A DNA stretch of 64,000 bases from Sipunculus nudus (lineage: Eukaryota; Annelida; Sipuncula; Golfingiida; Sipunculidae): the NCBI GenBank assembly GCA_026874595.1, contig CM049318.1, positions 47,596,456-47,660,455 on the forward strand, in the 5' to 3' direction. Below the pieces are notes generated by a model. That model did not search any database. It was not told the DNA's origin and saw only the letters and a list, made by a program, of their open reading frames with translations. Numbering within the stretch: the first letter of the stretch is position 1; every line of letters begins with the position of its first letter. Shown here in pieces: positions 20,262-58,200 of this stretch. The position numbers and the translations under genes were made by a program.

Positions 20262-23200
20262 GTTGGTGGAGTGTTATTGATACCTGGACTCCAGTCCAGG
20301 TGGAGTCTGAACTGGTGTTCCGTGATAAATCATCATCTGTCATCGATAACACACTATATCAGTCATACTGTCATAATGGAAATTCCTTGTAATTATACAT
20401 ATCATTAGACAGATTATGAGCCCTGGATCAGAAATGTTTTTGAATAAGTAAATATAATAATAATGGGATCTCCCTAAACGGGAATCCACAGCTTTTCTTT
20501 GAGGCTTGAGTTATTAATCTCCCTAAATGAGTCATGTTACAAATTCAGGTATTGGTGGTGCCATCTGCATCAACCTATTTTGAATAGGGGTCATCGTTCA
20601 TCAGTACATAAACCCATAATTTCTCATGAATAGCAGGAGCTAGCATCCCCAGATTTTATGGTCACATATCAAATGTTGTTGGATTTAGCTTTTTGTGGTG
20701 CCACCTGCTTCAACTTACATTTTTCAGGGGAAAAGCTTGATAACCTTTGAAAATATTCTTCTCTGATATCATTCAGCCAATAATAATTGAATAATAATAT
20801 TATTTGAATAATAAATAGTTAAAACTCTTATCTTATTTGTGCTAGTGCTACTCTTTGGTAGGGATAACCAGAAATTATTAAATAACAGTTAACTCATTTG
20901 TAAAAAGCATAATTAACATGCCTGGTATTGGACAGTTTGTTTTTTTCAAATACTTCTACTGCAATATAGATAAAGCTATATGGCCAAGTCAAAACTTGTG
21001 TGACACCATTTCCAAATGTAAAAAAATATATATGGCATAAGTCCTCTTCCCTCACTTCAGTGATATTATCATAATCTTACATAACTTGAGTTTAACACCA
21101 TCAATTCATAATACAGCTTATACTACCACACAAAACCAGAATTTGCCTACCTCCTCTTCCAAATCATATTTTGTGATCATATTTAACATCTGAGCCCCGT
21201 GACCCATAGGTCCCTTGTTTGACAAGTAAGCATACTAAATAACAATCTCAGAAACAATAGGGGCTAGGATCACCAAATTTTGGGAAAATGTTGGTCACAT
21301 GACTCATATTTGAAATTGCAGTTCTTATGGCGCCACCTACACGACCTGTTTTTAAGGCAAAAACCTCCAAATTTAAGCATCTTTAAGCTTAAAAATGTAT
21401 ATATAATGAAATGGTTAAGCTGAATCGTTTAACTTTTTACAAGAATATTCTAGGACAGGATATTTTTTCATTTTTATAAGAAAAAAGGTTGGGTTCATTG
21501 ATATTTGGTAGAGTCATATTATATATAGAAGGCTTAAATTGGTCTTGAGTCCATTAGTAAGCCTATTTCAAATTGAACACTGCAATAGTCTTCTTCTGTA
21601 AAACTGTTGTTTCAATTTATGTAATATTGCACAACGATAATTCTTAGCTGGCCTTTGTTCAAATTTACTTAATAATTGTTGGAACAGTTATAAGACCTTT
21701 GAAAATGAAAGGATTGCATCTTTCATTATTCTTAACAAATTTATAAAAAAAATCTTATGAATACATCAGCTTGAAAAAAAAGCATTTTAGCCAAAGTCTT
21801 TCAATATGTGTAAACAGATTTACCAACAGGCCAAGATTGTGTCTGTATCTATAAAGAGCTTTGCAGAATGCCAAGTATTTCAGATTTGGCAACAGCCCAA
21901 AGGTCAGCCTGGATCTTTTTATAGCTTTTGGCTGTTGCCAGCTGTATCAGATTAGGCAACAGGTGAAGAGTTCACTCAGTGCAGCCAGGAACAGGTGAAG
22001 AGTTCACTCAGTGCAGTAGCTGCATTCTATTTATAGCTTTGGCAGATGGCCCACTCCATCAGATTTGGCAATAGGTCAAGAATTCAGTCACTGCACACTC
22101 AGATTGCAAGATTTCAAAAGGTCAGGTCAGCTCCATGCCCCTTCTAGGCTGTGGGCAGTTCCTGGGTGCCCTTGGCCCTGCATACTCTCAGGGGTCATAA
22201 GTTCAGTTGAGTTTTTCTGAGCTAGGCTTGGGGCTGTTGCTGGCTGCACTAAGACCTTGGTGACTTGTTATTTACTGACAAAAACATTATTTTAGCCCTT
22301 TTCATTTTAAAACTGTTTGATGATCTCAAGCTGGGGGTATCGGTATGGTTATTTCAGTTATATAAAAATAGATTGGGTTTGTTGATATTGGTAGAGTCAT
22401 AGAAAGCTGAAATTGGTCTTGTGGTCATTAGTAAGCCTATTTTAAACTGAGGGCTACAATAGTCTTCTTCTGTAAAACTGTTGTTTCAACTTCTGTAACA
22501 TTATCATTGCACAAAAAAGATTTTTAGGAGGCCTTTGTTCAAGTTTACTTTAATGATTGTTGGTGGAATTATTGGACCTTGAACAATGAAAGGACTAAAT
22601 CTTTTATTATTCTCAATAATTTGATAAAACAATCTTATTGATATGTAAGCTTGAAAAAAAAAGCATTGTTGCCAAAGTCTTTCAGTATGTGTAAACAAAT
22701 TTACCAACAAGCAAAGATTGTGTCTGTATCTGTATATAGCTTGGCAGACCGCCAGCTATTTCAGATTTGGCAACAGGCCAAAGGTTACTCTAGATCTATT
22801 AATAGGGATTGGCAGAATGCCAACTGTGTCAGGTTATGCAATTGGTCAAGAGTTCATTCAGTGCAACCAGGTACTGGTCAACAGTTCACTCAGTGCAGCC
22901 AAGTGCAGATAAAGAGTTCACTCAGTGCAGTAATTTTAGCCATCTATTTGTCACAGTTCACACGCGGCAACTGCCTTTCTCACCTTACCCTGGTAAGCCA
23001 CGTGCATCAAACTCAGGAGAAGTTTGATGTATTGGCCTGATATTTTGACCTTTCTATGTGTCTATGATGCCTTTCTCTTCACAAGACCGATGTCACCACC
23101 TACAATGACTTTTGCACAGTGTGAGTGCCTGCTTATTTCTCTGGAGGGATTTGATATATAAACCTGAAATTTCACATATTTTTACATAATGGATAGCTTT

Positions 23201-26200
23201 GTTGTATACAAAGCTGGTGGCACCACTTATAAATACATTTTGCACAGTGTATGTCCAAGCTTATTTCAGGAGGAGTTGATATATCAACCTGAAATAGGAC
23301 ATATGTATACATCTTGGATAGCTTTATCTTATATAAGAACTGGTGGCGCCATCTACAATCATTTTTGTGTTGTTGTGCACCCATGCCAGTATTTCAGCAG
23401 TGATGTTTTTGTAATTGGTTCTTGTACAAAATGTGAAGTACTTGCATTGTTCATATACATGTTACACATGTAATTGAACAGTAATGGTCCAGTATTGAAG
23501 CATTATACCTGGTGTATAAACCATTGCACAGATTCAAATTAGGCCTGTAGGCCTTGTTTTTCTTTCTTTCTCTCTTTTTTCTCTCTTTTTATCTTTCTTT
23601 TTTCTCTCTTTTTATCTTTCTTTTTTCCCTCTCATATTAAAATATAGTTTATGACAGAATGTTTGTATATTAGAGATCTGCTCAATTACCATTTGGAGAA
23701 TGAGGTGGTTGTGGACTCGAGGTATTGTTATTACAGCATTTATTACATCAAAGATTAACAAAAGAAAGTACTTTTATCATAAACTATGGGAGAGTGACAG
23801 TCTCTTTACATTTCATATTACATCATATCAGCCTTTTTAATAATATATTTATGTCATATATATTTACATTTATTCATTATATTTTTCCATTTAATGTGAT
23901 AATAATTATCACATAGGGGCATTGGTGAAATATTGGCCAGATACATGCGTTCAATGTGGATAGATTGTAGATAGTAAATCCCTACAACAGCAGGTTGATG
24001 GAAGAGTTCAAAGTTCACCATCCTTAAACTACAAGGGCCAAAGATTTGTAATGTGAAAATTGCTAATAAGTAAATTTGAATAAAAGACTGTTATTATGAA
24101 CAAAAAATTATAAAATAGGTGATAAGGGGTGTCGCAGTGGTGTATGCTGTCCAAAAACGCCATCCCTTTCGGCTACTATCCTGTATTAAGCATCAATCAG
24201 TTAACCTTAGTATTAACCCGTGCATGTCTAACTTGTCATCGTCTAACTTGGAATTGTCCAGCTGACAAAGAATTGTCAATATTCTATCTGAACATCGTCC
24301 ATCTGGGTTGTCACCAGAAAAAGGAGATAATACATGCAGGACAGACTTATTAATAATATTGCCCAATGGTTGTAGCATTAGGACTTAAATTTTCAAGTGC
24401 AACAATATATTAAAAGCTGTAACCTCTTTTCTGTCTGCAAGGAATACTTGAATGGTTCCTGGTTATTCTTTTGTCTGTCAATCTGTCCGTTTTGCCATGT
24501 TCTTTTATCTAATATCTCAAAAACCCTGCTGCTTTCATCTTCAACATTAACAGACATTAATCACATGACTATCACATGATCATAACCTGCAGTTGACTCC
24601 AGCTCTCTCTGCAATCCAAAATGATCTTTTCCACTTTCCTTCAATATAGCAGTAAAATTATAAGGATACTTCAGTCTTCAGTTTATAAAGAAAGATTCAA
24701 GGAAATTACTATAAACTAAAATTGTGAACATTTATAGGAGGGAATATGAGCCATGAGCATATATCACGTTGGGGCTAGGTTCTAATTGAAGATCTAACAA
24801 ACCTTTCTTGAGTTAGGTGCACTGGGCTGACCAGGTTATGTGAAGAAGACGGTTGCCCTGAGTGAACAGGAACAAATTTCTCTGCAGCTACTGCACTGAG
24901 TGAACTCTTGACCTATAACTGGCTGCACATAAACCCAGAGGCTCTGATTGCATCATCCTTGTTAATGAAAGATTTGCATAAACATTTACTTGAAAACAGC
25001 AGTTGGATATGAAAACTATGGGTCAGAAATCTCCCAGCTCCCATGTTCCTCCATGGTTAGATAAAGATATTACAAAGTCATCATGATCTCCCACCCGTAA
25101 CACACACAGTGTTCCACCTTGCTGGTCCCAGGTTTTACTTGATTGGAACTTTCTTTCAGCTTGCATGTACCTGAGGCAATGAGACACCTGATAGGTATAA
25201 TAAGTTCAACTCGATAGTCTTACTATTAAATATGTTTAGATAAAAAGTGTTACAGGTGGGACATATTTGATAAAAATAAAATTTTAATTAATAATAACAT
25301 TAAATTTATACATTAATAAGACAATAAATAAAATAAGTCACGAACCCAAAATATGCCATGGACTTTTGAAAATCAAGGCACAGTATATTTCTTTTTAAAA
25401 TATAATATGAGGAATTTATCAAATTTGCCAAAAGAAAGTCTATGGAGGATTGTTAGGGGTGGGACAAAGGCTTGTAATGATATTTACTTTTACAACAGGT
25501 ATGTTTTAATATTCCTCTTTGTTGATGAAATTTATGGTGAGAAAATGCTATAAAATAATCTGCACAGTCATTCTGAATATTCTGATGAAAAGTTTTAAAA
25601 ATAACCCTGCATGGCTACTCTTTGAAATAATTGCCTTTAGATATACTTATTAGTACAGTCCATGAAGCACTCTAAAAGCACAGTAAATGTGAAGTAAATG
25701 TACTCATGTTTTCCAAGCCTTTCAATTTTGCATGTTTCTTTTTGGAATCCATACCTTTATTGTTACCATTCTTGACCACTAGCTGATAACCCGGTATATC
25801 GGGCCTTTTACCAGGTTGGGGAGATGTATTAATTGACAGGATTTATGGATCCTTTTTTTAATCAAAAATTAAAAGAAAATATAGATTTTTAGTGGTTTAC
25901 AGTCTCAATAAGATATGTACAAATATTCTGTTAACAATTATTTTGTGGCGCAGTGCTGGTGTAAAGGAATTCATACACCAGTATGTTGACCTTGAAGACC
26001 AGGTTAGTGGTGATTTTTACATTAATTTGCGAACCGGAATGGGACACAGGGGCCCTCCGGTTTTTGATGACCTTTGACCGTACTATTTTTGGACGTTTAA
26101 AGTACAGGTAAATATGAGGAAGACATTAATTCAACATAGCTTGACCTAACCTCTAATTTAACTGGAGTAGGAAGACAAAAGATGAATAAATGTACGTTTT

Positions 26201-29153: not shown

Positions 29154-32100
29154 TAATCAAGGTTTTCCATTATATTCTTTTTTGTGGCTGTGATGGGGAG
29201 ATGAAAGATTTCTGGAAGATCCCACCACCCTAGTGTGCAAGAATTAAACTATAGTTTGTTGTTTGTCAATGTACATGCATCAGATGAAAGGGTCCTATAT
29301 AAAACAGTTTTTTCCATTATCTGGAGATGTTTAATTTTGCATATTTTCTAGTTTGGGTTAAATGTCTTTGAATGGATAGGCACCAGTTATTATATTACTA
29401 AATCAACCACACTGCACTGTTGCCAGTATCTTGCCTATATATAACCTCACCATATAAGCATTTTGATAGTTTATGCTGTCCCCTTATTACCAGCACCCTT
29501 GTGTAACCTAGATTTATGTCTCTTTGTTTAAAAAATGAAAGAGAAACTGGAGTCTGATGTTATGACAAGTCTTGACAACATGCTGGAGATCCTTTAGATT
29601 GTTGCTGGACTGAGAGTCCCTGGTATGAACATTGCTAGAACTAACCTCTGCACAATGGTTAAATCCCTAAATAAGCAGCTGTGACACCTTGATAATAATA
29701 AGTCCATAAAAATAATTATTATTTTGTTTACTTCATCATAATTCAGTAAACAGTCGAAATTATAGTGCCACATGGTTGAATGCTAGTGTTTATTTACATT
29801 GGCCCAAATTATATGGGTAACAGTTACTATAATTATACCCCCTCCAGGAAGATATTGTTTTCCCCTCGATTCATTTGTTTGTCTGTTGGTTTGTAAAACC
29901 AATCTACACAGAAAATTATGAATTGAATTTGGAGATTATCTGGGTCCCCATAACATATTTTAAATTAAGAGGATTTTATACCATTGTGTCACAGAGCATT
30001 CCATTGTCCATTGGGATATTGCTCCATTCATATCTAGGTATTAGAGCCATCATTTGTTCAGACACTGACCAGATGAACCCATGTTACTTAATGAGATATT
30101 GGACAGGACAAGAGTCCTGAAAGCTTGTTTAGGGGATCCTGGTGGGGATGTCAGCTAGTACAGTTATGTACACATTTAGGTTTGGTATTCATTTTAATAA
30201 ACAGTTTGCTTAAGGAAAAATTTAAATTCACAGTGATTTCATCAAAAATAGATTCCAGATCTCTAAACACACCTTCATAAAGGCTTTGCTAAAGTAAATA
30301 TCTGTGCTTCTTAGGGAAAGTAGGTAAACTAATAGTTTTAACTGGTATGAGACAGTAATCTCCTTGGAATTAGTAATAAGACTGATTTTGTATCAGGATT
30401 TCCACAAGCACAACATATTTGCATATAAATGGACATTTTTCGCTCCTCAGGAGCAATTAGAATTCCAAAAGGGCCCTTTTGCCTGAAACATATGAACTGC
30501 AAAAGGGATAAAAAGTAAACCTCCAAGCTAAATGGTGAAATGTCATAGAACCTCTTAGATAAATTATTGAAATCACATAGAACCACAGATAAATGGTGAG
30601 ATTGGCAATGATGTCTTAATGACAGTTGTAAAAAATACACTTGAAGCAAATTGATAACAGAAACCTTTAAGTATTGTTTGAGACAGTTTTGACAAATTTG
30701 TAAAACATGGTGAAAAAGTAATTTTGAATCACTGTCTTACAACTGAAGACATTGTAAGTGCTTACTCCATTGTAAGTGCTTACTCCTGGCATTAGCATGC
30801 CACAGGTCAGCCAGTTCACAGGGATAGAGGCAAAATTAGCAAACAAAATTAAAATGCCTATGTCATAGTTTAAAATGCCCTTTTCAGCTGGGTGTCTTGA
30901 CCCATTGGCCACTTGTTAATCTTTTTTCATCCAAAAAGGAGCAACTTCTAACCCAAATTTTATTGTATGTCATTTAAAAATATTTTGCAGAACATTTACA
31001 GTGGTTTTATGATATATAAGATGTATCCTTTTATCTGATATGTTTATTTATTTATTTTGTAGATAGAATATTCTTACCCTCCTCTACTAGAGGGCAGCAC
31101 TGTAGAAAGTCCTGAGTTGCCAGCAGAGTGGAAGCACCTGCCATCCCTGGCGCTGCCAGACGGTGCTCATAACCACGATGAAGGTACGCAAATCACAAAG
31201 ATAAAGGTCAAACATCAAGACAAAGGATCCTTTGTTCAGTCTCTAGATTGGGCATCAGTGCGTGCAGGGATTTTAGGGCTAATTTATTTTAAAGTATTAA
31301 ATAGTTATTTTTAATGTGTGGACTAATGTAGGTCACTACTGACTGAGTTTTAACCTTCATCTTTGGTGTTTCCCCGACATAGTTAAACAAGGGTTAAACA
31401 AGGGACCAATGTGACCCATCGGTCACTGTGCTTAGCTGAAGCTGATCTTGAAGGTAAAAATAAAAAATAATATCAAATGGAGATAAAGTTTGCAAGGAAG
31501 AGGTAATATAGGCTATGGTTGGTTGATATGATAAATTTGTATTGATGAGTAAGACATTGTTGCAAATAATATTTTGTGCCCTAAACGTGTTTCCTAATGC
31601 TGAAGCTGACGCATGTAGCACTTTGTGAATATTAGATCAATACTATTACCATGATCATTGGTTGGCCTTTTGATAAATTGTTGACAGTTCAGCAGTTTAC
31701 ACATTTGTTCAATTAGATTATTGTTTTTAGCTCAGCTGACTATAAGTCATCTGAGCTATAGTCGCAGTCCATTGTCTAGCTGTCCGTCCGTCCATTAGAC
31801 TGGCAGGTTTTTAAACCATTATACCTACAAATCCAAAATTTGGCATACTGTTAGATGTCTGCAAGATCTCCTACCAAACTGAAAACAGGATCACTACAAC
31901 TTCATTCCATAGAGATTTAAAGGAAAATCTTCAATTTTCCATTAAAAACCTAATATTACACTTCAGAACTGCCTAATATGAAAACCACTCATCTGCTTTT
32001 CTTCATATTTACCATAAATATTCCAATATATAGTTTCTATGTACATGCGAGAAATAAGGTCAGTATTACGTAATTGTATCCGCCAAAACGAAGTTTTGCG

Positions 32101-35100
32101 GATACTATGTTTTTGACCGGGTTCCGCCGCCGCCGCGTTTGTTTCCGGAGAACTCCTCTGAGACTACTGGACAGATTTTTCCGAAACTTACACAAATTAT
32201 CGGGTCACATGTGAACTGGTGCCTAACCAAGTGACCTTGACCTCTGACCTTTCGTCTCTGCCCAGCGTCCGTTTGTGCGTCTGTTTCCACACATAAACCC
32301 ATATATCTCGGGAACCGTTTGACCGATCCGGAAAAAAATTTTACACAAATGTAGCCCTGGGATAGCTTTATAACATACACAACAAAAGGTGGCGCCACCT
32401 GCAACCATTTTTGCACAGTGTCCATCTGTTCATCTGCCTGGGGGTAAAATCACTCATATCTCTGCAGTGGTTTGACTAATTCACCTAAAATTCGGCATGC
32501 GTATACATCCTAGATAGCTTTCTCGATTTTATGACAGGTGGCGCCACCTACATTCACGTTAACGCTCCACACATAAACCCATATATCTCGGGAACCGTTT
32601 GACCGATCCGGAAAAAATTTTACACAAATGTAGCCCTGGGATAGCTTTATAACATACACAACAAAAGGCGGCGCCACCTTCAACCATGTTTGCACAGTGT
32701 CCATCTGTTCATCTGCCTGGGGTTAAAATCACTCATATCTCTGCAGTGGTTTGACTAATTCACCTAAAATTCGGCATGCGTATACATCCTAGATAGCTTT
32801 CTCGATTTTATGACAGGTGGCGCCACCTACATTCACGTTAACGCTGCAGACATCCAAGCTCATATCTCGGGAACCGTTTGACCAATCAGGAAAAAAAAAT
32901 TACACAAATGTAGCCCTTGGATAGCTTTATAACATTCACAAAAATGGTGGCGTCACCTGCAGCCATTTTTACACAGGGTCCATCTGTTTGTCTGCCTTTG
33001 GTTAAAATCACTCATATCCCTGCAGTGGTTTGACCAAATTACCTGAAATTCAGCATGCTTATACATCCCGCATAGCTTTCTTGATTTTATGACAGGTGGT
33101 GCCACCTACATTCACATTCATGCTGTAGACATCCATGCTTATATCTCCGGACTCATTCAACCAATCAGGAAAATTTTTTTACACAAATGAAGCCCTTGGA
33201 TAGCTTTAAAACATACACAAAAATGGTGGCGCAACCTGCAGCCATTTTTGCACAGCGTCCATCTGTTTGTCTGCTGTGGGATAAAATCACTCATATCTCT
33301 ACAGTGGTTTGACTTTTCCACATCAAATTTTGTTTGTGTATATATCTTGGATAGTTTCAAATAACAGGTGGCGCCACCTACAATCATGTTTATGTGGCAG
33401 AGATCCATTCTAATATTTAACACATGTAACTCTATATCCCCTTGCCACTCAATCCATGCCTTACTTCACCCGTCCTTCTCTGATTTTGGCGGATACACGT
33501 AGTCGCTTGTCGACTACCCTTATTCTAGTTTAATAAAGTTATGGCCCAAACAAAATGCACTTTGAAAAAATTAGGAAAGATATTTACTTACTTAACTTGA
33601 TAATTGTTGAAGCTAGAGAACTTTTTCAGGGATATAACTTTATTTAAACAAGATTAAATTGTATACTCTAAATTAGATCTGAATTTGGTAAACTTGATAA
33701 GTTATTAGCATTATTATAAAATCAGTACCTTAAATTATGCCCAACTTTGACAATTGTATTTTTTTTCCTGTAAGTATATTTGATTTAATTTTCACAGCAG
33801 GTACACATATGAATTTAATCTGTTAAATTCTGAAATTTGAAAATAAAGGCTCAAAAATTAGGCTAGATATTGAAGATTTTTTTCAGAGGCTGTATTATAT
33901 ACATTTGCATTGTCAAGCTCCAGGCTGCCCACTTGTGGTCACTACAGCCCAGCCTGGTAAACATTTCTTGAAATAGTAATTCAAGGAGTAATCCAGAAGA
34001 TGCAATGTTGTGGTAATGTAGCATTTTATAAAGGAATTGATTTTATTTTAAATAATTTAAGCATATTAAAATATAATTATTAAACCAATATTTAGGCATA
34101 ATTTGATAATATATGAGTCAAATCATGGATAAATAAACATGTAATTTCTAATTTTCATATATTTATTTTTTGCAAATTTAAAATAACATTGTATAAATAA
34201 AAATACATCTGTGAATAATGTGATGTTACCTGACGAAATTCACTATGAATGCTGATGCAATTTAGAATTATGAATCAACTTAAATATTCAGATATATATG
34301 TTATACTGTAAAGGTATCGTAAAATTTATAAACTTAAAAAAAAAATTTGATGTAATGAAAAAAATGAGCATCTATAGTCCGTTCCACATCCCCTGTCCAC
34401 CTGATTTTTCGCAATTATCTCTACATAAGACAGACTTGCCAAACAAAATTTGCACCAATTGCATAAAGAGGCAAAAGCGTAATTTTTGGTACCTTTCCTA
34501 CTCACAATATAAATATTATTTACTTTACGGCCAGGTTGACATGTTTCATATATATCCATGGTTCATGGCGTCCCTAATAAGTGGCCATTGTTTATCCTCC
34601 TTGGATATGGATATAAAGTAATGTGACGTAACAGTGAAGCGCGTACACGCGGAGAATACAAGTCTCGCTGTAAACATGGGTAGGCAGCTCTTGACTATTG
34701 GTCCCGTGAATGTTGGTGCCTCGTTAGTACGTCACGTCTATTATGACGTCATCACTATTTCCTGAAATGCCCATTTCACAGATTAGTGGCAAGATGTCGC
34801 TACAGAATAGACTAGTTACTCATAAAATGGTTAAAAATTGTTTACAGGAAAATGATATAAGGTAGGCTATTATTTCCATAATAGTTAATTACGCTTTTTC
34901 CCCTTTCCGCCCTCAGGTCAAAAAGTGTTGGCTTTCTTTGATTCGCAAAAAAATAATTGCGAAAAAACAGGTGGACAGGGGCACTGGAACGGACTATAGT
35001 GCATTATTTTCCTGCCTCAGTAGAATCAGAACTAAAGTGATTTACTTACGGTATGTTTTTCCATCTCACTGTCTGTTTTTAAATATTTAATAATTATGAA

Positions 35101-38100
35101 TAATCTGTTTTTCCTGTAAGACTGTTAAATTAAATTTCATACCCTGTATGTTTATGCAAGGGTATTGTAAACTCTCAGCATCCTCCCCCCCCCCCCCCCC
35201 ACCATCGAGTTCTTGCAACTGAGCACTTAGGACAATAGTTTGATAGCAGCTGCATGAAATTAATTAAAAAAGGAAAAAATTAATAAAAAATTTAGGTTTA
35301 ATTAAAAAGAAATAGGATCTTATAGGGCCATTGTGTAAACTGTTGAACAGTCAACAGGTTATCAAAAAGCCAACCAATGATCATGGAAAAAGTATAGATC
35401 TTATATTCACCAACTGTATGCTTACATGCTTCAGTTTCAACAATAGGAAACACATGGTCAGATCACAAAATATTATTTACAAAAATTTCTTCAATCATAT
35501 CAACCAGTCATGGCCTATATTACCTCTTCTTCTCAGACTTTATCCCTGTTTGATATTATTTTAGATTTTTACCTTCAAGGTCTACTTCAGCTGAGCACAG
35601 TGACCCATGGGTCCCTTGTTAAATATATATATTTTAATTTTATAAAATGTATATAGTTGCATTATAACTTATGTCCCCAGTCCACAGGTGCAAGGACTTC
35701 GTGGTGGTTGGGGAGGGGTTGGGGATGGAATAATAGGATTTACAATATCTCTGTATATATACATACAGGATATTCACTTAATTCAACCGTGCTAACAGGA
35801 TAAAAAACTCAGACCTGGTGATTGTTTCCCAACTAAAAATTATTACTTAATTTTTAACCATTTTTTTACACAAATCTGTGACTATTTCCTCAAAAAGGAA
35901 AACTCCATGCAGGGGTAAAATTTCATCAAATTTTGCAAGAGTCACACCTGACTCTCGCAAACTCATGTTGTGCAAGTCATGAGAGTCTTTTTTAATTTTT
36001 TCATTAAACAGAGTAATAATTTTTCAGATAGCTTTATATCACACATTTTTTAGTTTTGAATGAGAATAAAATCCACATGGAAATTGATTTTGATTAGCAA
36101 TTACAGAATATTTATTAACAATTTAGGCATTTTTCAGATATGATTTAAATAAAATATTGAAATGTAGTCATGTACACTATGTGGTAATAAATATATATAT
36201 ATATATATATATATATTTAACAGTACAAATTATTCAATTGCCAAAATGGGTAATTTATATATACATTTAGTAGTGGGCAGAACATACCTATACAAGTAAT
36301 AATTATTCAAAATTAAAATTTAAAAGTATGATCACCTTATTAGTTCACTCTGTGAACTTATGCCATGGCGCAGCGTCCGCCGTCCACTGTCCACTGTCAA
36401 CTGTCCACCGTCTGTTACCAAATATCTCAACAGCCAAAGCAGCTACCTTCATGAAACTTTGCAGAATTACTGATCATGGGATGGACATGCAAAAATAAGC
36501 TTTTGGTGGCGCCACCTATGTTGACCTACTTTCTGCAGGAAGAAATGGTCTTTTCGACTTCTTTCAAGATAAGTCATAAAGTATTAATATTTTGGCCTTC
36601 ATATCATAGTCAACAGTTCCTTAGAGGAAGGGGAATAATTTGAGTATAAATTCAGTCAAGTCATATTCAAGATGGCGTCTCTACGGAACTTCAAATTCTG
36701 TCGATCGCAAAATATGACAGCTTGATGTGTTTCTATACATGATGTATTGTCTGTTACCATATATCTTAGAAACTGCTGCAGCCTTCAGTTTCAAATTTCA
36801 CAGGAATATTGATCATATGACTGCTAGATGATTTTGACCTCCAGATGGCGCCAGCTGTGTTGACCTACTTTCTGCGGGAAAAAATGGTCTTTTCCACTTC
36901 TTCTAAGATAAGTCACAAAGTATTGAAATTTTGGCCGTCATATCATAGCCAACAGTTCCTTAGAGGAAGGGGAATAATTTGAGTATAAATTCAGTCAAGT
37001 CATATTCAAGATGGCGTCTCTACGGAACTTCAAATTCTGTCGATCGCAAAATGTGACAGCTTGATGTGTTTCTATACATGATGTATTGTCTGTTACCAAA
37101 TATCTTAGAAACTGCTGCAGCCTTCAGTTTCAAATTTCACAGGAATATTGATCATGTGACTGCCAGATGATTTTGATCTCCAGGTGGCGCCACCTGTGTT
37201 GACCTACTTTCTGCGGGAAAAAATGGTCTTTTCCACTTCTTCCAAGATAAGTCACAAAGTATTGAAATTTTGGCCTTCATATCTTAGCCAACAGTTCCTT
37301 GGAGGAAGGGGAATAATTTGAGTATAAATTCAGTCAACTCATTTTCAAGATGGCGTCGCTACAGAAATTCAAATTGTGTGGGTTGCAAAATTTAGCAACT
37401 TGATGTGTTTCAATACAGGATGTATTGTCTCTTACCAAATATTTTTGGAACTGCTGCAGCCTTCAGTTTCAAATTTCACAGGAATATTAATCATGTGACT
37501 GCCAGATGATTTTGACCTCCAGGTGGCGCCAGCTGTGTTGACCTACTTTCTGTGGGACAAAATGTTCCTTTCCACTTCTTTCAAGATAAGTCACAAAGTA
37601 TTGAAATTTCGGCCTTCATATCATAGCCAACAGTTCCTTAGAGGAAGGGGAATAATTTGAGTATAAATTCAGTCAAGTCATTTTCAAGATGACGTCTCTA
37701 CAGAACTTCAAATTGTGTGGGTTGCAAAATTTAGCAACTTGATGTGTTTCCATACAGGATGTATTGTCTGTTACCAAATATTTTCGGAACTGCTGCAACC
37801 TTCAGTTTCAAATTTCACAGGAATATTGATCATGTGACTGCCAGATGATTTTGACCTCCAGGTGGCGCCACCTGTGTTGACCTACTTTCTGCGGGAAAAA
37901 ATGGTCTTTTCCACTTCTTCCAAGATAAGTCACAAAGTATTAAAATTTTGGCCTTTATATCATAGCAAACAGTTCCTTGGAGGAAGGGGAATAATTTGAG
38001 TATAAATTCAGTCAAGTCATTTTCAAGATGGCTTCTCTACAGAACTTCAAATTGTGTGGGTTGCAAAATTTAGCAACTTGATGTGATTCCATACAGGATG

Positions 38101-41100
38101 TATTGTCTGTTACCGAATATTTTCGGAACTACTGCAGCCTTCAGTTTCAAATTTCACAGGAATATTGATCATGTGACTGCCAGATGATTTTGACCTCCAG
38201 GTGGCGCCAGCTGTGTTGACCTACTTTCTGTGGGACAAAATGTTCCTTTCCACTTCTTTCAAGATAAGTCATAAAGTAATAATATTTTGGCCTTCATATG
38301 AAAGTCAACAGTTCCTTAGAGGAAGTGGAATAATTCTAGTATAAATTCAGTCAATTCATTTTCAAGATGGCGTCTATATGGAACTGTGTCGATTGCAAAA
38401 TTTGACAGCTTGATGTGTTTCTATAAATGATGTATTGTCTATTACTAACTATCTTAGGAACTGCATCATGTGACTGCTAAATAATTTGACCTGCAGGTGG
38501 CGCTACCTGTGTTTACCTACTTTCTACAGGTTGTAATGGTCTTTACTGCTTTTTCCAAGATATGTCATAAAGTATAAATACTTTGGCTTTTATGTCATAG
38601 TCAACAGTTCCTTAGAGGAAGAGGAATAATTTGAGTATAAATTCAGTCAAGTGATTTTCAAGATGGCATATCTACGGAACTTGATGTGTTTCTATACATG
38701 ATGTATTGTCTGTTACCAAATATCTTAGGAACTGCTGCAGCCTTCAGTTTCAAATTTCACAGGAATATTGATCATGTGACTGCTTAATGATTTTGACCTC
38801 CAAGTTGCCAGCTGTTTAGCTACTTTCAGCAGGCTGTAATGGTGTTTTCTGCTTTTATCCAAAATATGTCATTAAGTATTTATTTGTTATAATCCACAAA
38901 AACAGAGTCTCCTCTAGGACCCTTGGACTGATCTTTCCAAAACCTGGCATACTTGTTCCCTCACCTATGTAGTTGTAGGTAACAATGATGGAGAACCTTT
39001 CTGTGCAGTACAAACCTGGGTTTCTTTTATATAACAACCCTCAATCTCAGGAGTGGTTCAACATATTTAGCTGAAATTTTGCATATTTATAGATCTTGGA
39101 CTCCTCAGACTTACACTCAAGACTGATGATGCCATCTGCAATTGTTTTCCCATGGCATCCCTGGTACATTTGCTGTGGGTGAAAATTGCTCATATCTCAG
39201 AAGTGGTTCAATGTATTGATCTGAAATTTGTCATGTCTATCCATCTAGGAAAGTTTTCTCGTTAACCAGACAGGTGGCGCCACCTACACTACTTTTTGCG
39301 GAGTGTCCAACTTTGCATTTGCCATCTGATCGTCTTAGTGTTTGTTCAGTGTATTGGGTTGAAATTGTGCATGTCCATAGATCTTCGTCACCTCAATCTT
39401 GTAAACAAGACTGGTGGCGCCATCTGCAATAATTTTCCTGTGGTGTCCATTCATACATTTGCTTTTGGTGAAAATTGCTCATATCTCAGGAGTATTGGTC
39501 TGAAATTTGGCATGTGCAGTCATCTTGGAAAGTTTTCTCATAAACCATATAGGTGACGCCACCTACCTTGTGCAATAGGACAATGTCTACTTGGAAAGGA
39601 ATGAATGGTATTTTCACATTCATTTATTTTTTAATCACTTGCCAAATTACACAGTAATTCACAGAGTGAACATTAGACCCCTGGGTCTCTTGTTACTTTA
39701 AAGTAATGGCTCAGTTGAAGATTGTAAATATTATATATATAATCCAAAATTTAATAAAAACCTGATGAAATAAAGAAAATAAAAATTCAAGTCTATTCCT
39801 TTTCGCTATCTGCACTTTTTACAATTATAATGAATAGGCAGAGCTGCAGTAAGTAATACATGGGTCACCTTTGAAACCTGAAGACACGTGTTAACTTTGC
39901 ATGGAATTAACTGAATATTATATTATTATTGTAGTTCTTTTAAAAATATTTGCATTTCCACCAAAGTGTTAAAGTTTAAATAAGTGTGTTGTCAACGGCA
40001 GTTGGGAAGATCCTTTAACAACACAGTGTTAACTACCATCTATAACATTGCATCTGCGTCATTTTGTCTGTTTTTTTTAGAAACCTGACAAGTTTATTTG
40101 AGGAGTCTATTCATTTACACTGTTTTATATATATATAAATGTATAATATAAGGGATAACCTTCCAAATCTAATTTGAAACATAAACTTTTTTTGTTGACA
40201 AGTGTGCAGGACTTTTTCACGGGGATTCCCCTTTCTTGGTACCGCAGGCGGCATATGTGAGCATTTCATTACCTGTGACAGAACGAAATGCCCAGGAAAG
40301 TGGATCAGATTATACATGACTGCACATAAGAACACATTATTTATTTTTATGTTATTTGTAATGTGGAATTGTTACTGACAGTGTAAAAGGTTGACATCGC
40401 CGGCACTTTGTCAGACCTGGTTATGATTTAATAAAAGAGTAAAAGACTGGCACATTGAAAGTGCATACAGCCCGTTTGGTTTAATGAACGTGGATAACTT
40501 GCTTTGCTAAAATAATCACAAATATTTTGCTTTCTGATTGGTATTGATGAACGCTATATAGCATGTTGAGTCCACCAAAGCGGGACCATTTTGTCAGTGA
40601 AAAACATGACAGTCAGAGAGACCACAGGGTCAGAGGTCAGATGAAGTCTATTCAAATAAAGTTGAGGTCAACCAATGGAAGCATGAGTCAAGTGACTCAA
40701 TGTTGTATCAACCAATGGGTGTGTGGGTCAGGTGTGACAAGTGTCAATAGGATTAGCTTTCCGGGAAACTCATGCAACAAGCACTTTGTGTTAGTTTATA
40801 TAATTATGTATCATTCAAAGAAGCTTGCTCACATGAGAATTAACTTAATGCAGCGGTCCTTTGTCACGCATCTGTGTGTCTGATGTACATGTTTACTGTT
40901 ATTTATGGCTTCATTTTACCACGCATTGGTTTCCCTGAAATCGTTCTCCTCAAAAGGTGAGACATGCATTTTGATTGATTTGCAGACACACAATAAGAAA
41001 TGGAAACTGGTTCGCAGTGGGTCAGTTTTACATTGCAAATTGCAATGTGTTACCTCTTATTACGAGTGCTACTTGTATATTCAAAACAAGGCGTGCTCGT

Positions 41101-44100
41101 AGGTGCACATGGAAATAGTTCGTGAGCTTAAATGTTTTGGTTAACAAACTGAAAAATGCTGGATCATGCCAGAAATTTTGCACTTCGTCAGTTGTTTGTA
41201 TGCGAGTCGCGTGCAACTCGCGCTAATGGATTTAAGGCGAGTCTGTACGAAAGTCGACTTCTGCGACTCGCGTGAAATTCTTCCCCTGCCATGGAAACCT
41301 TGTTTGCCTTATTTTATAAACATAACTCGCCTCTCAAATGCAAATCGATGAAAACAGTGACTTATCAATAATAATGCTGAAGTACATTTGATTATAGGGC
41401 AAAAAAAAAGAGTTTAATGTAATCTAAGTAAGTGTTTCTTTCAAAGTGATTTATGTAACTGCATTCAGTTGCAATTTAAATTTTGTTGAATTACAAATGG
41501 CTTTTAGTTATGTGAAACAGGTAAATAATAATGATCAAAGATATTTCAAGATCAAATATTTTTTGTTCACTTGGTTTTTTTACTTGTTTTTTTTAACCAA
41601 ACACTTAAAATAATAGTTAATAGTTATAGGCAAACACCCCAAGTAATCGTAATAGGCCCTATCATTGAAACCAGTAATAGGCCCCATGTCTGTAGCCAAT
41701 TGCAAATGCAAAGATGTGGGCTAATCAGAAATTATGAAACCCTGTGGAAATTAGTTATTTCATGAGTAAAGACGTGATACTTCTCAGACCCTTTCTGCAA
41801 ACATTATGAAAGCATATCTTCTCAAGGGTATGTGCTGGGGACATAGGAATGGGGAGTGTCTGTCTGTCTTTCTCTCAGTCTGATGATGTTTACATAATGG
41901 TTCTGTGTAAAAATAGATGAGGTAAAAATGGCTGAGATAGGCCTTGTTTTACTATACCTGATAATATTTCAATATAACAATACTTCATAACTCTTCAGAC
42001 TTGGCTGTTGAAAAAAAAATCCCAATCTGAGTCCTTCATAATTAGTATGTAGAAAAATCTAGATATTATCTTTTAATTTTGTGAAAATTAAGTCATTGTA
42101 ACTAATACTAGAGCTGTCCTGCCCACTGAGTATGTCCTATAATTCATGCATTAATTAATTTAAAACTTGCTATACATGTTGATTCATGATAGCCTTATTA
42201 TTTGTAGACACCAGTGATGTCATCTTGAACTTTTAAATTATTGTTGTTTGTTAAATGTCATTTTGAGACCGTGTGGGATCAGGCATGAAATTATTTTAAA
42301 TGTAAGTCCATGAAAGCATAGACCATTGCCTATACTCAGCAATAGAACATCACGATCCGTTTGTCACATGTTGTGATTTTGCTTTTTTTTACTTTTTGTT
42401 TTACAGACACCATATATTTCCATCTACCATCAAGACTACACAAGAAGAGAACAGTGTTTGGTGTCTCATGTTATAGACAAATAGCAACAAAGGTACAGAT
42501 AAATATGATTTATATGAGGCCACACTAAAAAATTAATTGTTCTAATGAACCACCACTCCTTTTTTAGCTCAGCTGACTGTAAGTCAACTGAGGTATAGGA
42601 ATGGCGCTTAGTCCGTCATCTGTCTGCCAGACGACTGGCCGGCCGTCTGGTCGTCCATTAGCAAGGCACAAATCGTAACTGCTGGTCCTAGAAACTTCTT
42701 AGTGAATATCCAAGGAGGTCAATAAAAAATCTCCTTTGAAACCTAAAATTAGGTCACTGCGACATATATCCTCCAAGCTATGGGACTTGAAAGTACCCTC
42801 CAGAATAATGAAAAATTTGATACAAAACCTCCAATATCTTGATGATTAATGCATGGATTGTCTAGAACCTTGCCTTGAATATTGACCATGACTAGTTTTG
42901 CCAGTTCCCTAGAAGTGGTGGTGCCACCTGCCATTTTTCATCTTTTTTGAATATTTTTCTATTTTTATTACTATAAAATGACAATCATGTCAGTCTCTCA
43001 CATGTGATTCCATCTGGTGTCCCAAAACCTGGTGTGTTTATTGATTCAAAGTGGATGCCCTATAATTATCACCCTGTCTGTCTGTCTGTTTGTCTTTCTG
43101 TCTGTCCATCCGTTTATCCACACCAATTTGTTTCCAGGTGATAACTCCACTTTGGAATGACCTATGGATTTCAAACACAACTTACAAATGGCCCGCCACT
43201 AAAGAAAGAACCTGTATGATTTTAGGATCATGAGGTCAAAGGTCAAGGTCACAAGGCTCACTTATTTAAAAAGACTATGGCTGCATTTTAAGCCAAGCTT
43301 TTCATCCCAAACTTTCCATCTTGCACATTTAGCTAACTTGCCAGTATGGGGAGAGCATAAATGAATTTGGCATCAAAGGTAAGGTCACAGGGGCCATCTG
43401 TTCACAAATTAGTTTCCAGATGATAACTCCAGTTTAGTTTGACATATTGGTTTCAAACTTAACTTATATAAGGCTCACAACTCTAGTCAGAACCCTGTCG
43501 ATTTTGATGTCCAAAGGTCAAATGTCACAGGACCCATTTCTTTAAAAGGAATGTGTATGCATTTCAAGCCAAATTTTTCATCACAAACCTTCCATCAAGA
43601 TATTACTCACCTGCCAATAGTGGAAGACCCTTTTTGGTTCAGGGTCAAAGGTCAAGGTCACAGGGCCCATCCATTCACAAATTAGTTTACGGATGATAAT
43701 TTTGCTTTGGTCAGACAGATTGGCTTCAAACTTGATCTCTGAATGACCAACCACTTAAGTAAGAAACATTTTGATTTTCAGGGTCCAGATGTCAAAAGTG
43801 AAGGTCACAGGACCGTCATCCTGAATTTTTTTTTCAAAATATCCTTATTGACAAATACAGCTGAGCGTTGAGACCCCTGGGTCCCTTTTTTTATGGAGCA
43901 ATTTTTTAACTCACCTGACTGTACCCCATCTGAGCTATACATTGTCTCTCCCACCAACAGTTATGAGAGTCAAGTACAGTTGATCTGTTGTGAGTAAAAG
44001 TTCATCAGAAGCAAAAATTTCTCAATAATTCTCAGTTGAATCACCTTTAAATTTACTACGTTTACCTGATCTTTATCCATTCTATAACACCAATGGTCCC

Positions 44101-47100
44101 CCTAGCCTGTTATTAGTTTTGGCTTGCTTTGTGTCTATTTTGAGACTGACATTTTCATGGCACAGTATTTTCCTGGTATTTTCATGTATTTTCCCTGGGT
44201 TCCTGAGTAATGTACCTGATGTCGTATTCCTGTCCTCATTCAGAATTTTCACAAATATGACTATCAAGTACTGAAAAGATTATGACTAATAATTGTGAAT
44301 GTTAGGGTATACTGTCCAGCTAGTCAGCTGAGTGTCAAGACCTATTAGTTGCTTGTATTTTCTAGGCAAACTGATAAAATTTCCTCATATTGTGTCTCGA
44401 CAGGTAATAAAAACAATTTTGCCCACTCGCACTATATTTTTTGGTACCAAGAGTCTGTTGAACAAGAACATCTGAGGCATAGTTATGATCAGTTGTCCGA
44501 ATTCTGTCCATTAGACTGCCTTGTTTTTGAAACTGTTGGATCTATATATCTGAAATTTGGCATACTGTTAGATGTTCCCAAAATCTCCTATCAAACCAAA
44601 AATGGGTCACTGCAACTTTGCTCCTTCAAGAAATTGAGGGCCTCAATTTTCCATTAAAAACCTATTATCACACTTCAGGACTGCCTTTAGAATATCAAAA
44701 CCACTTATCTGGGTTTTTTTTCATATTTACCATGAATATTCACCAATATAGATCCTATTGTCATGCCAGAAATTAGCTCAGTATTATGTAATTTATAAGA
44801 GTTATGGGCCAAAACATAATGCAATTTGTAAAAAATCAGGAAAGATATTTACTCACTTAACATGATAATTGTTGAAGCTAGAGACTTTTTTTTCAAGTAT
44901 TCAACTTTTTTTATTTATGATTCAATTGTATACCCAAATTTAGATCTGAATTTTGTAAATTTTTTAAATTTTCAGCATAAATATAAAATCAGTTCCTTAA
45001 ATTTTACCTAACATTGGCACATTTCATTCCTTTAAATGCTGTTGATTTAATTTTCACCCCATGTACATGTAAGGATATAACTCTTATAAAATATGTAATT
45101 TGAAAATAAAGCTTAAAAAATTGGGGTAGTTATTGAATTATTTTTTCTGACGCTCTTATTGTATTCACTTGCATTTTCAAGCTCCAGGCAGCCCTATTCT
45201 AGTCACTGGAAGTCATTTAGTACAGATTTGCCTGCTTATACCTGATTTATAATGCATCATTGGGAGAGCCAACCAGCTGTAACACATGTACAGTTACTCT
45301 AATATCAACCCCCCCCCCCCAACACACACCCACACCCACCAAGTGTATTGGAATAATTGATATTGTTTGAACTCACTGTATTTCCTTCTTGTCAAGCTGT
45401 TTCCACTCCTTTGTGTAAAACTTTTTTTTAAATAGTAATTCATAAAGAAATAAATTGTATCTCCAGACAAAGTCAGGATACTATGGTTTAGGCATGGTCG
45501 CATTGCTGCCACCACCGCAGAGATTTCTTTCAGGCAAGATAACTTGAAAAATATTTCACAGATCTTCGCGAAACTTGACATGTGCATAGATATGGGTGAG
45601 AGGACAAAGCCTGTTAAAATGGAGTCATGACCTTTACTCGGAGAGTGACCTTGACCTTGAATAAGTCCATTTTCGGGGAAAATCACACAAATTCTTAATA
45701 ATCTCAAGAAATCTTGCATGGAATTGTTCCAGAAATGAAGTTGACCAAAGATCTTGGATAGTGTTGTCATGTACCAGAAAATGATGGCACCACCTATTAT
45801 CCTTTTCTTGTTTTCTTGATGTTTAATACCCTAATCTTTGCCACTTGACAGTACTGTGAGCATTATAAGTAAAAAACTAATGGACAAATTTCTTTTATAT
45901 TATGCATAATTTGCATATACACAGATATGGGTTATGGAATGATGTATATTTAAATTTTGGTCATGACCTTTCCTAGGAGAGTGGCTCTGACCTTGAATAT
46001 TTCCGTATTTGGTGAAAATCACACAAAATCTTAAATAACCCTATAAGGGATGCAAGAATTGGTCCATAAATCAAATTGACCGAAGATCTTTGATAGCTTT
46101 GTCTTCTGTGGAAGACAAGTATGCATCATAAGTCAAAAACTAATGGACAAATTTCTTTCATATTATGCATTAACATAGATATAGGTTATGGGATGAGATA
46201 CGTATATTAAAATTGGGATCATTACTTCTCCTGTGAGAGAGGCCTTGACCTTTAATATTTCTATATTTGGTGAAAAATATTGTTTCTCAAGTTGATAGAT
46301 GAAAGAAACCATGGTCACTTGCCAAGTGTCAGTAAATGCTGCTGAAGTTGGGGGCCTATTCTTAAAGGGGGGGGGGGGGGGTAATTGTCTGTAGATACTA
46401 TAGTGCCAAGAAATTCTAGTTTCCTTTTAAAAAATTTTAGCAAATTTAAATGTAACTAAACCCTTTTGTATGCCTAATTTGATCAAATAGGAGCGAAATT
46501 GTTCGTAAATAAAGCTGCAATTTAGAATTGTATATTCAGATTCAAATTACATTTTCAGATATTTAATGTTTTATATGTGTACAATGACAACTTTTTATTT
46601 AAAAAATTTTAATGCATCTATATTCATAATGTGATGCTATTAGACAAAATTGGGGATAAATGATGATGCAGTGTAGAATTGTAAATCAACTGATATATTC
46701 TGAATATTTGTTACATTGTTAATGTATAAAATTTATAAACTTGAAAGCAAATTGATGTTATAAAAAAAGGAGAATCAAATGCAAAAATTTGTGCATTATT
46801 TTCCTGCCCCAGCAGAATTGGAAATTCAGTGAAAATATAATATAATAAACAAATTAGGATCTTATTGAAACATCATATATAATATTCATGCCTCAGCAGA
46901 ATGGGACAAAGTGATCAGCTCTGTCCTTCCATCTCTGTTTATCATTAAATATGTAGAAAGTATGCACCAACTTTTTTCCTATGTTCTATTCAATTAACAT
47001 TTAGTTGCTGTATGTATATGGATTTAAGCTGTTAAGTCTGAAATTTGAAAGCAACTTATATATTCAGATATACATGTAATATTGCAAATATACACAATTT

Positions 47101-55200: not shown

Positions 55201-58200
55201 TGTATAAATAGGTTATATTTTGCGATTTTAACTCACAATTCCACATTACAGTCACGTTCCATAACTGTATATATTCATATCGGTATAAAGTAAACTTCGG
55301 ACAAAATCTGACTTTTAAAAATGATGAGGACCCATTGGGAATATCAAACAAATGGAAAATCTTCATTTTGGTACATAATATAAACATTTTCTATCATGTA
55401 CAATCAGAATCTTCAATCTATTGATAATGCAAAAAGATTTGTTTTTAGGCCTACATATATTAATATAATCAGTCTTTACCTTTTCCAAGATGCAGGCATA
55501 GATAACAGAAAATAGATGTTGTTTGATTAGGGTATACAGAAGAAATGTTGACCTGTGTAGGTCAGTTGTCTTGTTCGAGGAGGGTATACAATAGGAATTT
55601 TGATCATTGTAGATCAGGCATCTTGTTTGATGAGGGTATACACTAGGAATGTTGACCTGTGTAGGTCAGGTGTCTTGTTGATCAGGGTATACACTAGGAA
55701 TGTTGATCTGTGTAGGTCAGGTGTCTTGTTTGATGAGGGTATACACTAGGAATGTTGATCTGTGTAGGTCAGGTGTCATGTTTGATGAGAGTATACAGTA
55801 GGAATGTTGACCTGTGTAGGTCAGGTGTCTTGTTCGAGGAGGGTATATGATAGGAATTTTGATCATTGTAGATCAGGCATCTTGTTTGATGAGGGTATAC
55901 AATAAGACTGTTGACCTGTGAAGGTCAGGCGTCTTGTTTGAGGAGGGTATACACTGGGAATGTTGATCTGTGTAGGTCAGGCGTCTTGTTTGAGGAGGGA
56001 ATACAATAGGAATGTTGACCTGTGTAGGTCAGGTGTCTTGTTTGATGAGGGTATACAATAAGACTGTTGATCTGTGTAGGTCAGGTGTCTTGTTTGAGGA
56101 GGGAATACAATAGGAATGTTGACCAGTGTAGGTCAGGTGTCTTGTTTGATGAGGGTATACAGTAGGAATGTTGATCTGTGTAGGTCAGGTGTCTTGTTTG
56201 AGGAGGGAATACAATAGGAATGTTGACCAGTGTAGGTCAGGTGTCTTGTTTGATGAGGGTATACAGTAGGAATGTTGATCTTTGTAGGTCAGGTGTCTTG
56301 TTTGATGAGGGTATACAATAAGACTGTTGACCTGTGTAGGTCAGGCGTCTTGTTTGAGGAGGGAATACAATAGGAATGTTGACCAGTGTAGGTCAGGTGT
56401 CTTGTTTGATGAGGGTATACACTAGGAATGTTGACCTGTGTAGGTTAGGTGTCGTGTTTGATGAGGGTATACAGTAGGAATGTTGATCTTTGTAGGTCAG
56501 GCGTCTAGTTTGAGGAGGGAATACAATAGGAATGTTGACCAGTGTAGGTCAGGTGTCTTGTTTGATGAGGGTATACAGTAGGAATGTTGATCTTTGTAGG
56601 TCAGGCGTCTTGTTTGATGAGGGTATACACTAGGAATGTTGACCTGTGTAGGTCAGGTGTCTTGTTTGATGAGGGTATACAGTAGGAATGTTGATCTTTG
56701 TAGGTCAGGCGTCTTGTTTGAGGAGGGTATACAATAAGACTGTTGACCTGTGTAGGTCAGGCGTCTCGTTTGAGGAGGGAATACAATAGGAATGTTGACC
56801 AGTGTAGGTCAGGTGTCTTGTTCGATGAGGGTATACAGTAGAAATGTTGATCTTTGTAGGTCAGGCGTCTTGTTTGATGAGGGTATACACTAGGAATGTT
56901 GACCTGTGTAGGTCAGGTGTCTTGTTTGATGAGGGTATACAGTAGGAATGTTGATCTTTGTAGGTCAGGCGTCTTGTTTGAGGAGGGTATACAATAAGAC
57001 TGTTGACCTGTGTAGGTCAGGCGTCTCGTTTGAGGAGGAAATACAATAGGAATGTTGACCAGTGTAGGTCAGGTGTCTTGTTTGATGAGGGTATACAGTA
57101 GGAATGTTGATCTTTGTAGGTCAGGCGTCTTGTTTGATGAGGGTATACACTAGGAATGTTGACCTGTGTAGGTCAGGTGTCTTGTTTGATGAGGGTATAC
57201 AGTAGGAATGTTGATCTTTGTAGGTCAGGTGTCTTGTTTGATGAGGGTATACAATAAGACTGTTGACCTGTGTAGGTCAAGCGTCTTGTTTGAGGAGGGA
57301 ATACAATAGAAATGTTGACCAGTGTAGGTCAGGTGTCTTGTTTGATGAGGGTATACAGTAGGAATGTTGATCTTTGTAGTACAGGCGTCTTGTTTGATGA
57401 GGGTATACACTAGGAATGTTGACCTGTGTAGGTCAGGTGTCTTGTTTGATGAGGGTATACAGTAGGAATGTTGATCTTTGTAGGTCAGGCGTCTTGTTTG
57501 AGGAGGGAATACAATAGGAATGTTGACCAGTGTAGGTCAGGTGTCTTGTTTGATGAGGGTATACAGTTGGAATGTTGATCTTTGTAGGTCAGGTGTCTTG
57601 TTTGATGAGGGTATACCATAGGAATGTTCATCTGTGTAGGTCAGGTGTCTTGTTTGATGAGGGTATACACTAGGAATGTTGATCTGTGTAGGTCAGGTGT
57701 CTTGTTTGATGAGGGTATACAATAGGAATGTTGATCTGTGTAAGTCAGGCGTCTTGTTTGATGAGGGTATACAGTAGGAATGTTGATCTTTGTAGGTCAG
57801 GCGTCTTGTTTGATGAGGGTATACACTAGGAATGTTGACCTGTGTAGGTCAGGCGTCTTGTTTGATGAGAGTATACAGTAGGAATGTTGACCAGTGTAGG
57901 TCAGGCGTCTTTTACGAGGAGGGTATACACTAGGAATTTTGATCATTGTAGGTCAGGTGTCTTGTTTGATGAGGGTATACACTAGGAATGTTGACCTGTG
58001 TAGGTCAGGTGTCTTGTTTGATGAGGGTATACAGTAGGAATGTTGACCTGTGTAGGTCAGGTGTCTTGTTTGATGAGGGTATACACTAGGAATGTTGATC
58101 TGTGTAGGTCAGGTGTCTTGTTTGATGAGGGTATACACTAAGAATGATGATCTGTGTAGGTCAGGTGTCTTGTTTGATGAGGGTATACAATAGGAATGTT

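Follow-up and report, generated by a model that had tools for sequence, protein, structure and literature searches.

Three repeat elements in a probable Avl9-like intron of Sipunculus nudus with the features of non-autonomous Helentron-associated elements

We analysed a 64,000-nucleotide stretch of the genome of Sipunculus nudus (assembly of 1,426,538,692 bases in 153 contigs), hereafter the window (contig C13, 47596456–47660455), in which three repeat elements, A, B and C, are found. Our data make it very likely that these are non-autonomous Helentron-associated elements (HINEs) of the Helitron2/Helentron group, probably situated in an Avl9-like intron, and that they move as follows. A protein with Rep, helicase and endonuclease domains, whose gene lies elsewhere in the genome, would nick at the 5′ end, one strand would be copied as far as the 3′ palindrome and the CTWG end, and the copied strand would be inserted at TWWTT-like sites (a target shown only for C). 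The protein would recognise family-specific sequence, not shape alone. A Helentron/HINE-type reading is supported by inverted sub-terminal repeats and the hairpin at the 5′ end, by the 3′ palindrome, by insertion at T-rich sequence with no duplication apart from perhaps TT, by internal tandem units and by Rep proteins encoded in the genome. The hairpins, inverted sub-terminal arms and 3′ palindromes that an earlier annotation of the window (the original prediction) had assigned to all three elements were present at those places, and beyond chance.

The first copy of A (31725–35620, + strand) begins with TTTT and the hairpin AGCTCAGCTGAC, which starts at 31729, and continues with a GTCC microsatellite, a core, the sub-terminal inverted repeat CAGCTGAGC, the palindrome GACCCATGGGTC and CCTTG/TT; its tail, CAGCTGAGC..GACCCATGGGTCCCTTGTT, reaches 35620. 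This copy is interrupted by C (32074–33528) and by a terminal-inverted-repeat (TIR) element (34373–34999); C thus lies inside A, not beside it as originally described. Further A heads were found in the window at 4354(−), 7231(−), 11502(−), 42562(+), 43904(+) and 61050(+) in addition to 31725(+), and A tails at 1617(−), 7570(−), 10512(−), 21219(+), 31397(−), 43890(+) and 51268(+) in addition to 35620(+). The upstream flanks of the heads were dissimilar, and by eye the homology began at the T string preceding AGCTCAG. A's end therefore coincides with the hairpin, as had been anticipated. Most A copies have Ts at both ends.

Element C (32074–33528, + strand) consists of TT, the hairpin GTATCCGCCAAAAC (starting at 32076), 279-bp tandem units, a sub-terminal inverted repeat, the palindrome GTAGTCG-CTTGT-CGACTAC and a 3′ CTAG followed by TT; its tail is TTTTGGCGGATAC..GTAGTCGCTTGTCGACTAC. 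Element B (36340–39694, + strand, one copy) has a 5′ hairpin, TTAGTTCACTCTGTGAACT, with AGTTCACTCTGTGAACT starting at 36342, then 339-bp tandem units, C-like distal units, a sub-terminal inverted repeat, the palindrome AGACCCCTGGGTCT and CTTG/TT; its tail, TTCACAGAGTGAAC..AGACCCCTGGGTCTCTTGTT, reaches 39694. Read directly, all three elements carry a 5′ sub-terminal repeat with a hairpin that recurs inverted near the 3′ end, and all three have a palindrome near the 3′ end.

These ends were far more frequent than expected. When as many as three mismatches were allowed, GACCCMTGGGTCYCTTGTT, the tail motif of A and B, matched the window 10 times (0.05 expected), one match being the B palindrome read backwards and one (13453) looking unrelated. 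The A head matched 12 times (0.20 expected), one of these being the reverse reading of A's own hairpin. A scan for the architecture as such (hairpin, distant inverted arm and palindrome; plus-strand results only) recovered A and C, with B below the hairpin threshold; among 20 Markov windows used as controls, five contained one match and 15 none. In viral and prokaryote collections the A/B tail motif had one and three exact matches, respectively, which is about chance by our estimate, and the one viewed was coding-like DNA. A literature search on the motif strings returned unrelated work only, and one on HLE2 with CTAG returned nothing. The copies found in genome searches are spread over many contigs.

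Empty sites, which the original prediction had proposed as a check of the boundaries, allowed us to set the ends of C. Two A relatives in the window (1617–4354, − strand, and 44503–45207, + strand) run uninterrupted through the same site without C (at ~4031 and ~44790, respectively). In the genome, the filled site at locus L043 reads GCGTAATT, then C, then TTGTTTTAAG, whereas five empty units (L027, L028, L029, L030 and L032) read GC(G/A)TAATTGTTTTAAG. It follows that only two Ts, and nothing else, are element-borne or duplicated. This shows that C entered A at a T-rich site and that the target was not duplicated, TT possibly excepted. Genome copies of C start with GTATCC, preceded by T or TT.

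The 3′ end of C differs from the one originally assumed. In all 20 C tails listed, CTAG precedes TT; three of these tails lie outside A (two at L026, one at L028). TT also followed all 34 distinct C tails selected with a pattern that required CTAG. The last dodecamer of these 34 tails was CCCGTATTCTAG in 25 and the window's own CCCTTATTCTAG in one; the CTTATT of the window is a private change of CCCGTATTCTAG and not C's end. For A and B, 27 tail readings (33 rows minus six reverse readings) comprised 20 with CTTG, one with CTAG (L055) and six others, counts that lean towards CTTG because the search pattern contained it. CTWG/TT is the most suitable notation for the shared 3′ end, which is CTAG in C and CTTG in most A tails and in the single B copy.

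The same boundaries bear on the possibility that A, B and C are TIR (MITE-like) DNA transposons, which we consider extremely unlikely. Such an origin would agree with inverted repeats at both ends and with the lack of any visible coding capacity, but the right inverted repeat is sub-terminal and the ends are asymmetric (the argument for A and B), the empty sites of C show no duplication beyond TT, and the nearby TIR element at 34373–34999 looks different. The latter, a MITE-like element with ends CTATAGTCCGTTCCAC..., also occurs at 600–1199 (the copies are 83% alike); the copy at 34373–34999 is inserted in A, and the A copy at 1617–4354 has the empty site at ~2200.

The target of C was read from 27 copies located off the A site, one of which (L036) sits beside an older C. 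The bases before GTATCC were T in 27/27 copies at positions −5, −2 and −1; position −4 was A in 20 and T in five, and position −3 was A in 19 and T in seven. The target of C is T-W-W-TT (TWWTT). C's own end followed by TT is itself a TWWTT-like target: at L036 a young C, ~1498 bases along when counted from the 5′ side in C's orientation, lies directly on the TT that follows the CTAG of an older C. The tail of the upstream copy is 84.8% and the head of the downstream copy 99.5% like the window's C. The two copies differ in age, and hence the younger C probably landed beside the older one.

We also considered whether C parasitises A site-specifically, with machinery that targets one base within A. 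The query consisting of the A head and the start of C gave 40 scored genome matches, all of which span both parts, and the junction lay at the homologous base in each of the 20 loci read. In 12 of these loci and the window, the parts of C were far more alike (head 97.4%, tail 93.4%) than those of A around them (A5 86.1%, right A flank 81.1%); this group contains the near-duplicates L013 and L014 and excludes L016, L018 and L024, which have no C tail. The C head exceeded A5 in 77 of 78 pairs and the C tail exceeded the right flank in 76 of 78. At the left end of C, identity stepped from 0.81 to 0.98 in 11 loci and the window, with a smaller step at the right end (0.91 to 0.86). Judged by these identities, C seems to have reached the homologous base of several A subfamilies independently.

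However, a query that contains the A head selects A-site cases by itself. A sample blind to A, obtained with C alone (30 loci including the window's own copy), placed two of 29 non-self copies at the A site (L043 and L058), and at L049 C is found elsewhere in A. In 104 kb of sequence, a non-random sample consisting of the window and the C flanks, 502 TAATT sites were counted; five of them are the A site, and one of these five is the window's own occupied site. The probability of two or more of 29 copies at the A site was 0.001–0.03, depending on the target model, and a mild excess at this site is possible. Most of the pattern can be accounted for by C's preference for TWWTT and the abundance of A. 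We concluded that the same-base insertions reflect sequence preference together with an abundant host element; the A-blind sample lends weak support to site-specificity, which as an explanation is quite unlikely.

It is more unlikely still that A and C move together as one composite element. Five loci (L017, L021, L022, L023 and L025) would fit this view, since in them A (A5 97.6, right flank 97.3) is no less alike than C (head 93.5, tail 96.1). Yet in these loci the sequence beyond A's head and past its tail is also common to them, which points to the probable duplication of a larger unit, and C surpasses A in likeness at the other 12 loci and in the window. The larger repeated unit contains two A heads, C and an A-type tail, and its flanks outside A are common as well. 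A core units also recur in L027–L030 and L032 (A5 ~112 to 351, Am ~11 to 317), and A can therefore also bear satellite-like repeats.

According to the original prediction, the families keep their structure while swapping sequence, as if one replicase read the hairpin shape and a CTTRTT tail and the sequence were free to vary. The layout common to all three families and the different end sequences of A and C speak for this. We compared 21 distinct A heads over 11 stem pairs (231 pair-cells), drawn from a substitution-limited search in which strongly changed heads are missing. Of these cells, 208 were unchanged, 19 were broken, one was double-compensated and three were kept through a one-sided change. 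The 5′ hairpin of A is conserved as sequence. With 19 broken cells against one compensated, a palindrome sequence common to A and B, and CTAG instead of CTTATT at the end of C, recognition of shape with freely varying sequence is very improbable, and we rejected conservation of shape alone on the 21 heads. The apparent convergence on shape within one window dissolves when genome copies are read.

The three families had also been called unrelated in sequence, which does not hold. A and B have GACCCMTGGGTC-YCTTGTT in common, and by eye a variant A head at L010 (TTTTAGTTCAG...GTGAACT) is close to that of B (TTAGTTCAC...GTGAACT). An A-ended element of another subfamily (42562–43890, + strand), whose core contains TGGTGGTGCCACCT at 42916, has the tail palindrome GACCCCTGGGTC, as in B. 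Because the 3′ palindrome sequence is common to both, A and B probably belong to a single lineage within which they have diverged.

The ends of C are its own, but its core monomers are related to the distal ones of B. The distal core units of B (39040–39570, + strand) are 65% identical to C monomers over 217 bp (E 6e-22). A C profile with the palindrome masked scored 46.2, 31.9 and 6.3 bits in these units and 40.7 in a unit at 23.3 kb, and found none of the main units of B (best 0.4). Conversely, the masked B profile matched two of eight C units (9.4 and 7.7). A masked profile of the element beside C in L034 scored 48.7 in the A-ended element at 42.9 kb and 16.7 at best in B, and found no match in C (best −0.7). 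Decoy maxima, from one set of 500, were 4.4 for the C profile, 1.4 for B and 5.3 for L034. The chain from A-ended to C-ended monomers thus runs through B and is weak between the main units of B and C. At 22843–24687 the window contains B-like and C-like core units together with a 32-bp tandem carrying AGTTCACTC, which B's head also has; clear ends were not found there.

Monomers from inside A-, B- and C-ended elements are related to one another in a chain, and they contain the 14-bp palindrome AGGTGGCGCCACCT, preserved exactly or as a near variant although the units have otherwise diverged. With up to two mismatches, AGGTGGCGCCACCT occurred 21 times in the window and zero to one times in each of 20 Markov windows. 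This palindrome might be a selected binding site and not merely a product of descent, a putative role that we regard as unlikely. Half of AGGTGGCGCCACCT fits the CTCF core AGRKGGCRS on both strands, and we mention this as a lead only. Were a role of this kind real, HINEs would scatter a host-protein site, or their own replication site, through introns.

The window contains no open frame of Rep-protein length (among frames of at least 90 aa the longest is 178 aa), and neither of the two frames submitted to Pfam, one in C and one in B, gave a match. In the genome, the Helitron_like_N domain (PF14214) had 143 matches (150 of 195 candidates were scored), and seven open frames exceeded 2,200 aa. 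Endonuclease domains (PF03372/PF14529) were found in 3/3 C-termini tested, each reaching at least one Pfam cut-off, one of them barely. From frame length and position we infer that Rep and endonuclease are encoded in one frame. The search for an autonomous Rep-helicase element with the same termini, suggested in the original prediction, delivered the Rep proteins; the sequence around four of the 143 matches, as far as it was read, held no autonomous element bounded on both sides by ends of the A, B or C type.

The four frames lie on contigs C17, C13, C11 and C4, and the upstream sequence read amounted to ~5 kb, 3 kb, 2 kb and 1.3 kb, respectively. There was no clear A, B or C head in this sequence, only weak A-head-like strings with four mismatches and without a hairpin. 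A copy of C is itself inserted upstream of the C17 Rep frame. About 1 kb past this frame, on the same strand, CAGCTGAGCATCATGACCCATGGGTCACTTG followed by TTTTT forms an A-type tail, which 26 bp at the equivalent position of C13 weakly resemble. We estimate the chance occurrence of the C17 tail at roughly one in seven, A tails being common. The core palindrome and a Helentron-type frame with an A-type tail after it provide leads to the partner of such elements. The oyster study could not relate a partner to its own elements (PMC7492417).

Several observations weigh against the assignment of A, B and C to the HINEs and against the mechanism proposed above. Besides the failure to find matching ends on both sides of a Rep frame in the flanks just described, C is also similar to canonical Helitrons in its CTAG end and in the A before T at its insertion site. 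The ends of B are based on a single copy. The extra TT at C could be a 2-bp duplication. Finally, two head-to-tail junctions, CTAG-TT-GTATCC between two C copies at L036 and CTTG-TTTT-ACCTCAG between two A copies at L024, were considered as proof of rolling-circle or circular copying and dropped; they carry no weight for the mechanism. At L024 only 75 bp are comparable (93.3% alike). The part of the original prediction that called A, B and C non-autonomous rolling-circle elements is supported.

Among canonical Helitron features (5′ TC, 3′ CTRR and A/T insertion), the 5′ TC is absent. C starts with TT-GTATCC and ends with CTAG, usually with A before the TT, and A ends mostly with CTTG. A T-rich or TT target without duplication, as in HINEs, was found for C from empty sites and targets, the TT being ambiguous. 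HINEs were defined by Thomas et al. (PMC4067079). Like the HINEs and Helentrons of mite, mosquito and fly described there, our elements have sub-terminal inverted repeats close to the 5′ end (those of mite and mosquito are palindromic), a 3′ palindrome, terminal T strings, a TT target and Rep-helicase-endonuclease proteins in the genome. Unlike in those species, where partners were shown by sequence identity (84–99.9% in mite), there is no proven partner here (PMC4067079).

The layout is also close to that of Cg_HINE of Crassostrea gigas, which has a 5′ sub-terminal inverted repeat with a complementary inverted repeat, a GTCC-type microsatellite, tandem core repeats, a 3′ sub-terminal inverted repeat with a palindrome and a T-rich target without duplication, and whose autonomous partner is likewise unresolved (PMC7492417). 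Its core units, compared by description, are mostly 140–180 bp, whereas ours are 279 and 339 bp. The same study describes 11 HINE elements of this layout, some mutually unrelated and with no identified partner, and by its description the pearl elements of Crassostrea virginica also resemble ours in having short core-repeat arrays in a HINE-like frame (PMC7492417). FoHeli1/2 of Fusarium oxysporum, which are non-canonical and of the Helitron2 type, have a 5′ hairpin with an arm inverted near the 3′ end, as do A, B and C, and their target, TNAT/T in a figure legend (TNAT/A in the text), resembles the T-W-W-TT of C. In contrast to A, B and C, they end with ATTTT instead of CTWG and their families have putative autonomous members; joined ends of FoHeli1 were reported as PCR amplicons (PMC5148889). 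The three elements add a further set to the known HINEs and correct the equivalence of tails assumed in the original prediction. They provide boundary-resolved insertions of the Helentron type with relative ages and, for C, exact empty sites and a target motif.

An exon-like stretch with an Avl9 domain (31066–31185, + strand; Pfam PF09794, E 1.1e-5) lies just upstream of the elements, which are therefore probably located in an intron of an Avl9-like animal gene. Between the exon-like stretch and A, the 3′ part of another A copy (31397–31718, − strand) abuts A's head. At 31380–31415 (− strand) the A tail is CCCTTGTTTAACCCTTGTTTAA, in which 11 bp of the element end are tandemly repeated. Elsewhere in the window, a 47-bp tandem array with ~13 copies is located at 5543–6147, and a 52-bp minisatellite with ~103 copies occupies 55519–60864. 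The latter has a strong G skew (0.52 in 56–60 kb), and many of its units contain TGACCTGTGTAGGTCA and CTTGTT.

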